From positions 1 to 36,377 of the IMG/VR virus record IMGVR_UViG_3300021091_000206: a DNA stretch of 36,377 nucleotides; one strand, written 5' to 3'. Under the pieces are notes generated by a model, which was given only the letters and a program-made list of their open reading frames with translations, did not search any database and was not told where the DNA came from. Both the position numbers and the translations under genes were made by a program. Every line of letters begins with the position of its first letter. Position 1 is the first letter of the stretch. The DNA comes from a virus. This document shows, piece after piece, positions 28,100-32,638 of this stretch.

Positions 28100-28831
28100 A
28101 TGTTACCAAAACTAGATGTGCCTATACATGAAGTTAAATTAATTTCAACGGGCAAAACGATCCGTTTTAGACCATTTTTGGTCAAAGAACAAAAACTATT
28201 TCTAATGGCGTCAGAATCTAATGACCCTAAAGAAACGATTAATGTTATTCGTCAGGTATTAAAGAATTGTATTCTTGATGAGATTGATGTTGATTCATTA
28301 CCAACTTTTGACCTTGAATTCCTGTTTATGAATTTAAGAGCTAGGTCAGTAGAAGAAATTGTAAATTTAAAATACAAATGTAACAATGTAGTTTTAAACG
28401 ACAAGGGTGAAAGTGATGCTTGTACCGGTGTCGTTGATTTCAAAGTTAATTTACTTGAAATTCAGCCTACAAAGAACCCAAATCATACAAACAAAATTCA
28501 ATTGACTGATAATTTAGGTGTTGTTCTTAAATACGCATCGTTTGACATGATTCAAAAATATGAAGACAAATCTGAAGGCGAAATTATGTCTTCAATGTTA
28601 GTTGATTGTGTTGATTATATTTACGACAAAGACCAAATCTATTATGCTAAAGATGCTTCAAGAGATGATTTGATTGAGTTTGTTGATAATCTACAGCAAA
28701 AAGATTTAGAAAAGATTAAAGTGTTTTTTGATACTTTACCTGAAATTAAAAAAGATGTTCACTTTAAATGTCCAAAATGTGGATATGAAGAGGACATCTC
28801 TATTAAAGGATTACAAAGTTTTTTCGTTTAA
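28100..28831 (+). CDS. 26: Baseplate hub assembly chaperone, gp26-like (zero-frame product)
   Basis: The 243-aa protein fits the T4 gp26 family (T4 208 aa): MLPKLDVPIHEVKLISTGKT, IRFRPFLVKEQKLFLMASES, VLKNCILDEIDVDSLPTFDL, EFLFMNLRARSVEEIVNLKY. Cys94 and Cys108, with Cys224 and Cys227 in FKCPKCGYEED, look like a four-cysteine zinc ribbon split by a helical insert. gp26 acts in hub assembly in T4. The last codons AGT TTT TTC GTT TAA include a phased -1 slippery heptamer, and a second frame continues for 66 codons (see the next entries). GAGG precedes the ATG. By position before the tape-measure-like gene it resembles the G-type chaperone of other tailed phages. Confidence 0.85.
   Translation: MLPKLDVPIHEVKLISTGKTIRFRPFLVKEQKLFLMASESNDPKETINVIRQVLKNCILDEIDVDSLPTFDLEFLFMNLRARSVEEIVNLKYKCNNVVLNDKGESDACTGVVDFKVNLLEIQPTKNPNHTNKIQLTDNLGVVLKYASFDMIQKYEDKSEGEIMSSMLVDCVDYIYDKDQIYYAKDASRDDLIEFVDNLQQKDLEKIKVFFDTLPEIKKDVHFKCPKCGYEEDISIKGLQSFFV
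28819..28825 (+). promoter_or_regulatory. -1 programmed frameshift slippery heptamer T TTT TTC
   Basis: The heptamer has exact X XXY YYZ form in the zero frame of the gp26-like gene (AGT TTT TTC), three codons before its stop including TTC. The -1 frame becomes open only at 28807, after a TAA at 28804-28806, so the heptamer falls inside the 25-base overlap. No strong downstream stem was seen by eye. The nearby zero-frame stop could help pausing. Confidence 0.75.
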
Positions 28832-29025
28832 TTTTTCGTTATGATACACTAGGGAACTACTATCAGACGAACTTTGCTTTAATGCAACATCACAAGTATA
28901 GTTTATCTGAGCTTGAACAAATGATCCCTTGGGAAAGAAATATCTATGTTAGTTTATTAATTAAATACCTTGAAGAAGAAAAAGAAAGATTAGAATTACA
29001 AAAACAACAGAGAAAAAATAGATAA
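28825..29025 (+). CDS. -1 frame extension of the gp26-like chaperone (GT-type 'T' domain)
   Basis: Reading -1 from the slippery site gives 66 residues after Phe242: RLIFRYDTLGNYYQTNFALM, QHHKYSLSELEQMIPWERNI, then YVSLLIKYLEEEKERLELQK and QQRKNR. The fused product would be 308 aa. The segment SLSELEQMIPWERNIY plus a charged helical tail is like the T part of lambda G/GT-type tail chaperones, which contacts the tape measure. The extension ends four bases before the tape-measure-like gene. If not made by frameshift, an internal ATG at 28882 would give a 47-aa protein, but it has no Shine-Dalgarno sequence. Confidence 0.75.
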   Translation, partial: RLIFRYDTLGNYYQTNFALMQHHKYSLSELEQMIPWERNIYVSLLIKYLEEEKERLELQKQQRKNR

Positions 29026-29029
29026 AAAA

Positions 29030-30925
29030 ATGGTAACAAAAACTACTAATTTTAACCCTATGGTTGCAGCTTTAGCTAAAGAACTAGGTTATGGAAATGT
29101 TGATGAATTTAAAAAAGCTTTAGGTAAAAAACGTAAAAAAGACAAAGACAAAGAAACTGGTTTTCTTGGAGGTGTTGAAGTTGGTTCTGGTTTTGGTGTT
29201 GGAATTAAAAAACGTCTAGATAAAGGTCAAGGTCTTAAACAGTCTATTTCTGGGGGATATGGAGATTTTAAAAAAACACTTACTCTAGAAAATATGAAAA
29301 GAAGAATGTTAGAAAAAACATTTGGTGGTTCAGGTTTTATTTCTACATTTGCTCGTGGTAAATTAAAAAAAAAATACGGGACAATTAATCCTGAAGATGA
29401 TGATGAAGGTGAAAATGGAACATCACCTACATTTGATTATCTAAAATCTATAGCTCAAAGTTCTTTGGCTCTTCCTAGTATAGCCAAAGATATGAACACT
29501 CTTCGCCAAAACATTGTTGAATTGGCTAGAATTGAAAGAAAAACAGAAGACCAACAAGATTTATCCAAACAGGGCGACTTTTTTAAAGAACAAGACGCTT
29601 TAGAATCTCAACTAGAAGCACAAAAACTTAAACCACAAACTCCTGGATCTCCAACAGTTATCAAAAAATATGATGACATGAAAGATTCCGGTGATGCTGG
29701 TGGTGGTTTTCTTGGCGGTATTATTGATTCTGTTAAAAATGGATTACTTGGCGGACTAACATCATTATTTAATCCAATGGCACTTTTAAAAATATTAGGT
29801 AAAGCTTTTGCCATAGGTGCCTTACTTTATTCTCTATTTGAAGGTATAACTGCTGGGTTTAAAAAATGGCAAGAAACTGGTGATTTAAGTGAAGCAATTA
29901 TAACCGGCCTCGGTGCTATGATTGATTTTCTAACTTTTGGTTTATTTGGTGAGGATTCATTAAGAAAATTATTTAATAGTATAGGTGAAGTTGTTGAACC
30001 AATTATAGACAGTATTAAAGAGGCGTATTATTCATTTAAAGATTGGATAGCCAATAATGTAGGAATACCTAGTATACCAATGCCTGAATTTATTCAAAAA
30101 TTAGGCGGTCCAGCATCTATTGGTCCGTATTACCCATTTAAAAAAGATTCTAAAAGTTCTGCTAAAGAAAATTCAGCTGGCGAATATAAAGCTAAAAGAA
30201 CCGAAGAAAAAGTTCAAAAAGAAATGCAAAAAGCCACAGATGTTATTGCTGGCGTTAGTAAAGATTTAGGTTTAAGTCCATCACAAGATTCTACTGATGG
30301 AATCGTAAAAGAAGTTAGTAAGGGATTAGAAAAAGCCACAGCTTTAGGTAGTCAAATGCCTAAAGACAATAAGCAACGAGCCGATATTTTAGGCCAAATA
30401 AATTCTGTTACTGCAAGTAATTTAGAAAATATTAAGAAATTAAACGCAAAGGGTGATTATAGTTTAGGTCGTGCCGAAGATTATGAAAAAAATGTAGTTA
30501 ATCCTGTTAAAACTGAATTAGCTACTGCGATGGACAAATTTAAAAAAGGTCCTGAAGGTGGTTATGGTAATATGCTTTCAGGTTCTATGGACAAAGCAGC
30601 TGCAGCTATTAGTGGTAAAATATCTGCTGGCGGTCCAGCACAAAACTCATTAGGTGGTGGCGCTTCAATGCTGGGTGGCGGAGGTTCTTCTGGTGGAGGA
30701 ACATCACCAGCTCCAGCAGCGCCGTCTTCTACTATGGGTGCTGATTTAGCAGCAAAATCATCACAAATATCTGAAGGTCAGAGAATGGAATCAGCAGCTG
30801 ATATTGGTTCATTATTCAATGCGCCTGTAACAAATAACGCATCTGGTTCTATGGGAAGTGGAAGCAAACCTCAAGTGGGTGACACATATAATATGGACTT
30901 ATTAAACCTATTAGCAAGAACATAA
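29030..30925 (+). CDS. Putative tail tape-measure protein
   Basis: The 631-aa protein has a basic N-terminus (ALGKKRKKDKDKETGFLGG). An IAQSSLALPSIAKDMNTLRQ helix follows near 145. A Gly/hydrophobic block at ~223-280 (GGFLGGIIDSVKNGLLGG, KILGKAFAIGALLYSLFEG) looks membrane-active, and GFKKWQETGDLSEAIITGL follows. After it comes a charged helical stretch, then a Gly/Ser-rich segment and the end SEGQR...NAPVTNN. A hydrophobic block inside a helical, low-complexity protein right after a G/GT-like chaperone is the usual build of tape-measure proteins; T4 gp29 is 590 aa. The paralogous second gene follows three bases later. Direct gp29 homology was not recognised. The ribosome site is weak, so coupling to the frameshift product is possible. 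Confidence 0.68.
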   Translation: MVTKTTNFNPMVAALAKELGYGNVDEFKKALGKKRKKDKDKETGFLGGVEVGSGFGVGIKKRLDKGQGLKQSISGGYGDFKKTLTLENMKRRMLEKTFGGSGFISTFARGKLKKKYGTINPEDDDEGENGTSPTFDYLKSIAQSSLALPSIAKDMNTLRQNIVELARIERKTEDQQDLSKQGDFFKEQDALESQLEAQKLKPQTPGSPTVIKKYDDMKDSGDAGGGFLGGIIDSVKNGLLGGLTSLFNPMALLKILGKAFAIGALLYSLFEGITAGFKKWQETGDLSEAIITGLGAMIDFLTFGLFGEDSLRKLFNSIGEVVEPIIDSIKEAYYSFKDWIANNVGIPSIPMPEFIQKLGGPASIGPYYPFKKDSKSSAKENSAGEYKAKRTEEKVQKEMQKATDVIAGVSKDLGLSPSQDSTDGIVKEVSKGLEKATALGSQMPKDNKQRADILGQINSVTASNLENIKKLNAKGDYSLGRAEDYEKNVVNPVKTELATAMDKFKKGPEGGYGNMLSGSMDKAAAAISGKISAGGPAQNSLGGGASMLGGGGSSGGGTSPAPAAPSSTMGADLAAKSSQISEGQRMESAADIGSLFNAPVTNNASGSMGSGSKPQVGDTYNMDLLNLLART

Positions 30926-30928
30926 TAA

Positions 30929-32638
30929 ATGTCACCAACACTTGTCACTAACAAAGATAAACCAGAAGCTAATTTAGCAGATTCTTTTAGCATCATCGCA
31001 AAGAATTTTCTACTTCTACCTGGTATCGCTCGTGACTTAAATGAAGCTGTTCAAAGTATTGTTGGTATTGTAAAACAAAAAGGTGGTGAAGCAAAAGAAA
31101 GTCCTGACGAGAAGTTTATTGTTGAAAAAGACTTTCAAGCTAAAGAAAAACTTAAAGCGCCAACATCTGTTACTGAAGGAAAAGTTGCTAAGAAAAAAGG
31201 AATATTGGGGTCATTAATGGGCATGTTAAGTCCTAAAAAAATGATTAAAAATCTAATAATAGGATTTAGAAAGTTACTCAGCCCTAAAAACATAATGAAA
31301 GTTTTAGGAAAAATAGCATTACCGGTATTAATTGTGTCAACTATATGGGTAGCAATATCATCAGCCTTTGAAAAATGGAAAGAAACGGGTTCTATTTGGG
31401 AAGCATACAAAGAAGCTGTAGGAAGTGTTGTTGAATTTCTTACTTTAGGTTTTATTGACAAAGAAACAATAAAGAATTTATATCAAGGAGCTGCTGATTT
31501 TCTGATGCCTGTTATTAAACCTATACGAGAGTTTTTTGGTAAATTTTCTGATTGGGTTGGTGAAAAGTTTAATGGTGTATTAAAATTATTTGGTATTGAT
31601 GTTAAACCTAAAGAGGCGCCTCAGGTGCCACAGAAAGAGCAGGTTGTTACTCCTGGTACATTAAGGAGTGAACAACCAGTTAAAGAGAAAGACGCTCAAC
31701 AAAAAGCCGCTGACCTATTATCTAAACCTGTTACTTTACCAAGCGAACCGCCTCCACCAAAACCAGAAGTTGAACCAGCTGCACCAACACCAACAATATT
31801 AGCTCCAGAGGCAGCACCAACGCCAGCTCCAATTAAAAAAGGTAAAGCTCCTCAAGCTAAAGAATCTAAACCAGCGAAAATTGGTTCTGAAAGTGGTAAA
31901 AAAGCTGTAATTAATGAACTAAACGCTGAGAAAATTGAAGACCCAACGGCTCGTGCTGCTATTTTGGCTCAAGTCGCACATGAATCTGGTGGATTCACCA
32001 CATTAAGTGAAAACTTAAATTATAAAGCACCAACATTATTAAAATTATTTCCTAAAAAGTTTATGGGACCAGATGATGCTCAACAAGTATCCTCTGGCGG
32101 ACCTCAAACTGTAGCAGAACGCATTTATGGCGGCCGAATGGGAAATGCTCCAGAAGGTTCGGGAGACGGATTCAAATATCGTGGTCGTGGTTTTATACAA
32201 TTAACAGGTAAAGATAATTATAAAAGATTTGGTTATGATGGTAATCCTGATGACTTAACAAAACCTGAAGGTGCAGCTGAAAGTGCTATTAAATTTATGA
32301 AGGGATATAAGGGTGATTGGTCAAATATTACTGCTGTTACTAAATTTGTTAATGGTGGAACTTTTGGTCTTGCGGAAAGAGAAGAATATTTCCAATCTTT
32401 CTTAAATGATCCAACAATTACAAAAATAGATTCAGCATCTTCTGCTCCAAGCGGAGGATCAGTTGCGTCTGCATCTAGTGAAGTATCATCAGGCCAAAGA
32501 CAACAAGCAAAACCACAAACACCAATGGTTGTCAATGCACCTACAACTAATAACACCAAAGTGGTTAATAATCAACCAGCTACAATAACTAAAGATAAAT
32601 CAAACCCAACAAATATGGTTCTTGCTCGTGTGGCATAA
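30929..32638 (+). CDS. Tape-measure-like paralogue with a GH19 muralytic domain
   Basis: The 569-aa protein repeats the architecture of the previous gene: SIIAKNFLLLPGIARDLNEA near 20, a hydrophobic block at ~88-148 (KVLGKIALPVLIVSTIWVAI, then AFEKWKETGSIWEAYKEAVG), FSDWVGEKF near 207, and the end SSGQR...NAPTTNN. A Pro/Ala-rich linker (~270-315) leads to a GH19-type domain at ~320-490: AHESGGF with Glu352, LSENLNYKAP with Glu361, FKYRGRGFIQLTGKDNYKRF and FVNGGTFGLAEREEYF. GH19 enzymes cut peptidoglycan or chitin; two acidic residues fit the catalytic pair. As a likely virion protein it could open the wall at entry. An alternative is a lysis enzyme, but no signal peptide is seen. Confidence 0.85.
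   Translation: MSPTLVTNKDKPEANLADSFSIIAKNFLLLPGIARDLNEAVQSIVGIVKQKGGEAKESPDEKFIVEKDFQAKEKLKAPTSVTEGKVAKKKGILGSLMGMLSPKKMIKNLIIGFRKLLSPKNIMKVLGKIALPVLIVSTIWVAISSAFEKWKETGSIWEAYKEAVGSVVEFLTLGFIDKETIKNLYQGAADFLMPVIKPIREFFGKFSDWVGEKFNGVLKLFGIDVKPKEAPQVPQKEQVVTPGTLRSEQPVKEKDAQQKAADLLSKPVTLPSEPPPPKPEVEPAAPTPTILAPEAAPTPAPIKKGKAPQAKESKPAKIGSESGKKAVINELNAEKIEDPTARAAILAQVAHESGGFTTLSENLNYKAPTLLKLFPKKFMGPDDAQQVSSGGPQTVAERIYGGRMGNAPEGSGDGFKYRGRGFIQLTGKDNYKRFGYDGNPDDLTKPEGAAESAIKFMKGYKGDWSNITAVTKFVNGGTFGLAEREEYFQSFLNDPTITKIDSASSAPSGGSVASASSEVSSGQRQQAKPQTPMVVNAPTTNNTKVVNNQPATITKDKSNPTNMVLARVA

Follow-up and report, generated by a model that had tools for sequence, protein, structure and literature searches.

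A conserved slippery heptamer points to programmed -1 frameshifting in the gp26-like tail chaperone gene of an uncultivated T4-like virus

The window analyzed here, 36,377 bases of DNA, is a single IMG/VR virus record bearing T4-like structural genes. Table 1 lists the features around its gp26-like gene. The protein encoded by this gene matches PF12322 in the Pfam profile search (3.3e-60) and phrog_150 in the PHROG profile search (2.3e-67), and its identity to cultured relatives is only about 40%, the record being that of an uncultivated T4-like virus. The open reading frame ends with the zero-frame codons CAA AGT TTT TTC GTT TAA, with TAA at 28829-28831. An earlier note on this DNA had pointed to T TTT TTC in zero-frame phase just ahead of this stop, to a -1 frame opening 12 bases before the heptamer and to a 198-base gap before the next gene. 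Both the sequence and the translations agree with it: the -1 frame opens at 28807, and between the gp26 stop and the next ATG (29030) there are 198 bases.

Table 1. Features of the gp26-like locus, with positions in the window.
Feature	Position	Strand	Basis
gp26-like gene, short chaperone form (TAC-N, lambda gpG analogue)	28100..28831	+	243-aa ORF
Shine-Dalgarno-like AAAGGA within the gene, 8 nt ahead of the heptamer	28805..28810	+	sequence; anti-SD duplex -5.4 kcal/mol
Open -1 frame; post-slip reading from 28825, 66-residue T domain (cyanophage gp51)	28807..29025	+	phrog_634, pN/pS
Slippery heptamer T TTT TTC, zero-frame phase (X XXY YYZ)	28819-28825	+	216/216 distinct -1-frame junctions
Predicted trans-frame product, long form (TAC-NC, lambda gpGT analogue)	28100-28825 joined to 28825-29022; 28100..29025	+	profile alignment
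Candidate downstream hairpin	28835..28871	+	folding, about -9.7 kcal/mol
631-aa ORF, presumed tape measure protein	29030..30925	+	position and length only

From 28825, the -1 frame comprises 66 codons with its stop at 29023-29025. The predicted trans-frame product would therefore have 242 + 66 = 308 residues, with Phe241 and Phe242 read on the heptamer. The 66-residue extension had been described as resembling real protein. It does have the character of real protein, since it matches phrog_634, "baseplate hub assembly catalyst", with 4.8e-26 in the PHROG profile search and shows the selection described below (pN/pS 0.10), but it is not anonymous: it is the known gp51 domain of cyanophages, whose records label the same stretch gp51, adjoining gp26. 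It also matches the C-terminal part of phrog_150. The PF12322, phrog_150 and phrog_634 matches thus place both gp26 and the gp51 C-terminal domain at the locus. Lambda families were absent from the Pfam and PHROG profile matches for the locus, and the Rfam search of the window gave 0 RNA family matches.

The presumed tape measure ORF begins 4 bases after the T-domain stop and has no Pfam or PHROG match. The next ORF, at 30929-32638, is about 29% identical to it over 208 residues (1e-22) and also contains an endolysin-like domain (phrog_181, 2.8e-48). This second ORF looks like a duplicate of a tape-measure-like gene that has become joined to a cell-wall enzyme, where the tape measure identity is itself presumed.

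Protein similarity was used to collect related loci, the search patterns being free of the heptamer, and isolate genomes were added. A -1-frame extension is present in 216 of the 217 distinct related junctions, and in all 216, finished isolate genomes among them, the heptamer is kept in phase as T TTT TT(C/T). The comparison of the same junction across relatives, proposed in the earlier note as a check, shows a slippery site conserved in each of these 216. The junctions that bear it include those of Kyanoviridae and of the Straboviridae Aeh1, KVP40, V07, ZPAH1 and LPCS28. The sole exception, L075:2501-3290, is an in-frame fusion of gp26 and the T domain. Another relative from IMG/VR (L005) has a premature zero-frame TGA within gp26, which is probably a sequencing error.

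Codon choice within the heptamer is also constrained. TTT encodes the first Phe in 216/216 junctions against a background of 0.75, and TTC the second in 199/216 against a background of 0.25 (p 2.5e-86). The codon ahead of the Phe pair ends in T in all of them, whereas Ser, Asn and Asp codons elsewhere in the genes often do not. Under background codon usage, the probability that xxT TTT is always kept was estimated at about 10^-28 for 91 loci with less than 80% local identity, a figure to be taken as a guide only because the rows are related by ancestry. The conservation of the heptamer is far beyond chance.

Signs of selection were also observed upstream of the heptamer. In relatives, the anti-SD duplex is strongest, at about -6.3 kcal/mol, for 8-mers that begin at -15 from the heptamer, compared with -0.86 for the background. 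Codon choice at this element favors GAG and AAG well above background; for Glu, GAG accounts for 75% against 28% (p 4.6e-11). Such a codon bias suggests selection on the RNA and not on the protein alone. The AAAGGA of the window, 8 nt upstream of the heptamer, falls within the spacing of about 8-14 nt of the dnaX type and is probably a frameshift stimulator. A conserved downstream hairpin was considered as well, but folding, consensus folding and pair counts in 43 relatives were not convincing for it as a general feature. The hairpin energy varies by lineage (-14.2 in S-PM2, -15.6 in P-SSM2, and weak in others), and consensus folding of the aligned downstream regions found no common structure.

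We then consider how the -1 frame could be translated. In the window there is no ATG, GTG or TTG from 28807 until the ATG at 28882, 19 codons beyond the slip, and in 123 of the 216 junctions the -1 frame has none of these codons before codon 16 beyond the heptamer. For the 55 no-start loci of the window's clade, pN/pS was computed over the 15 codons that follow the gp26 stop: the -1 frame gives 0.10 and the other two frames give 2.0 and 0.80, with 0.20 for the final part of gp26 in the same loci. Purifying selection in this no-start clade acts strongly on the -1-frame protein encoded just past the stop.

The homology to T4 provides another line of evidence. T4 gp51 consists of a PF12322 protein (3.9e-52, residues 1-201) followed by a T domain, and its phrog_150 match covers residues 3-248. 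When the profile of the trans-frame product is aligned with T4-type gp51, the match (E 2.2e-16) is gapless at the junction; the T domain alone gives E 8e-13. PF12322 occurs in one copy in each of the 14 frameshift-type genomes searched and in two copies in T4, RB43 and phage 31, whose gp26 genes are without the heptamer (T4 reads TTC TTT). In sequence terms, gp51 of T4, RB43 and phage 31 is the in-frame equivalent of the predicted frameshift product. BLASTP between T4 gp26 and gp51 gives only E 2e-6, but their paralogy is plain from the Pfam profile. In the tree, which has several long branches, the frameshift group is set apart from the two-copy group (96/94) and there is a single gp51 clade (100/100), as expected from one duplication. 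In RB43 (L177:2501-3794), gp51 and gp26 stand in tandem on one strand with an overlap of a few bases, which is likely a trace of the gene duplication; the T4 pair is divergent.

One alternative treats the downstream frame as gp51, a small gene in its own right with a start codon of its own, reached by reinitiation or internal initiation. It is annotated in this way in S-PM2, P-SSM2 and others, and an ATG stands near the start of the -1 frame, soon after the heptamer, in 65/216 junctions. However, beginning at the first start codon in the window would cost 19 conserved residues, and neither the 123 junctions without a nearby start nor the protein-level conservation in the window's clade is what a separately started gene predicts. 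The SD-like element ends about 23 nt ahead of the usual cyanophage ATG, a spacing too great for initiation, and it occurs as well in junctions that lack the ATG. Moreover, T4 gp51 is fused to the gp26 domain. We consider a separate gene very improbable as the explanation of the locus, although a separate T domain could also arise in those relatives with an ATG shortly after the heptamer.

The Ackermannviridae bear on the same question. Those searched have one PF12322 copy and the T domain in the -1 frame, but the heptamer is missing: their gp26 genes end in sequences such as ATT TTC ATT TAA, with GAR ATT TTC ATT TAA common in the zero frame (L168, L171, L172, L352-L371). In K446, VP-1 and SKML-39 the heptamer is missing and TAATG overlaps are present, a point in favor of a separate gp51 gene, and to judge from their sequence these overlaps could restart translation; many other Ackermannviridae have no start codon there. 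The earlier note had held relatives with no slippery site and a separate start to be evidence against its proposal. Such relatives exist, but they were found only in the distant Ackermannviridae.

The poly-T tract raises another possibility, namely that RNA polymerase rather than the ribosome slips, giving mixed mRNAs and the same proteins. The six-T run at 28819-28824 could in principle allow this, and all junctions contain at least 6 T. Nevertheless, the run is just six T long and is mostly interrupted by the C that closes the second Phe codon; TTC is used there in 199/216 junctions though TTT is the commoner Phe codon, which is the opposite of what transcriptional slippage would lead one to expect. 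The fixed zero-frame codon phase and the SD-like element also suit ribosomal slippage, and we rate the transcriptional version as even more remote than a separate gene. Finally, an artifact of sequencing or assembly, or gene decay, that splits a single gp26-gp51 fusion can practically be dismissed: one locus, L075, is indeed fused in frame, but that fusion comes from a deletion removing the gp26 C-terminus and the heptamer region, the identical offset and heptamer recur in 216 distinct junctions, some of them from finished isolate genomes, and both frames are under strong selection. L075 is a close relative, and its deletion may be a true one or an assembly error.

The predicted fold of the gp26-like protein was also examined. 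The AlphaFold model has a mean pLDDT of 92.5, and its N-terminal ~85 residues align with the HK97 tail assembly chaperone 2ob9 at Z 7.5 and rmsd 3.6 over 83 residues. Two structural-genomics entries, 3fgx (Z 7.9) and 3klu (Z 7.5), rank with 2ob9 in the top three, far ahead of the unrelated matches (Z 4.6 in row 5 and Z 2.6 in row 6). A plain Foldseek search against PDB gave no significant match, with the HK97 chaperone listed at a weak E-value, and the search of solved structures by sequence returned chance matches only. The model gives moderate support for a tail assembly chaperone fold in gp26.

Programmed -1 frameshifting on the gp26-like gene, yielding a G/GT-type pair, is clearly the best explanation and in our judgment very probably correct. 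It is preferred because the slippery site is invariant and the -1 frame is selected as protein without a start codon, and because homology to T4 gp51 is gapless over the junction and the predicted fold resembles that of a tail chaperone. The fusion of a gp26-like chaperone to a T-type extension, as first proposed from the letters of the window, is thus supported by heptamer, selection, homology and fold alike. What we infer from them is the slippage itself, its rate and the role in assembly. Most ribosomes would end at the TAA, giving the short tail assembly chaperone. On T TTT TTC a fraction would shift one base backward as the two Phe tRNAs re-pair with TTT TTT, probably aided by the AAAGGA 8 nt upstream as in dnaX, and would read the -1 frame to 29025, giving the long form with a gp26 domain and a gp51/T domain. 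Both forms may coat the tape measure protein and recruit tube subunits, like lambda gpG and gpGT.

The locus can be compared with several known systems. In E. coli dnaX a Shine-Dalgarno-like stimulator lies upstream of the slippery heptamer, as the SD-like element does at the window locus; the dnaX heptamer is A AAA AAG and its hairpin is fixed, whereas the hairpin is inconsistent in the T4-like junctions. Lambda slips on G GGA AAG, while the window has a T TTT TT(C/T)-type site with an upstream SD-like element. In lambda gpG/gpGT, as at the window locus, a short chaperone ORF has its -1 slippery site close to the end and is extended by T before the tape measure gene, which in the window is presumed (Levin 1993; Xu, Hendrix, Duda 2004). 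For cyanophages, Sullivan et al. (2010, PMC3037559) described a gp51 without the first ~200 residues, so that the domain of the -1 extension is annotated there as a truncated separate gene, and gp51 as missing in Aeh1. The frameshift reading explains both the missing N-terminus and the apparent absence: gp26 of Aeh1 ends in GAT TTT TTC GAC TGA, followed by an unannotated gp51 domain in the -1 frame (L175:3277-3444).

The earlier note had presented the frameshift as a new extension of the G/GT principle to the gp26 family. This part does not hold, as the T4-like case was published in 2022. Tail assembly chaperone genes of T4-like phages, which share with the window the gene family and the -1 extension domain, had already been identified (Vladimirov, Gautam, Davidson, Virology 2022, 566:9-15), a work cited in PMC10885494 and, with regard to the poly-T slippery sequences of such genes, in PMC12846349. 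The core finding is known, and the window is a new example of a T4-like frameshifted chaperone, not a new kind. Vladimirov and coworkers reportedly found conserved frameshifting in several T4-like groups, with genes 26 and 51 separate in the T4 group. Prior work exists for the gp26/gp51 duplication as well, which is not a new insight. Two points are possibly new, the internal SD-like element and the Ackermannviridae junctions that have lost the heptamer, no description of either having been met in a limited literature search.

We further propose, as a combined view whose chances we put as evenly balanced, that in the T4-like tail chaperone family the conserved internal SD-like element sets the ratio of the two forms and that three solutions for the long form exist: frameshifting in Kyanoviridae and several Straboviridae, duplication with loss of the slippery site in the T4 group, and loss of the heptamer in Ackermannviridae, where the T domain would be separately started or made by some other route.

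The comparative evidence is strong that an environmental T4-like lineage relies on frameshifting for its long tail chaperone. The results also suggest that many short separate "gp51" entries in databases are misannotated halves of one fused protein. The frameshift, duplication and Ackermannviridae states provide natural variants for asking why two chaperone forms are needed.
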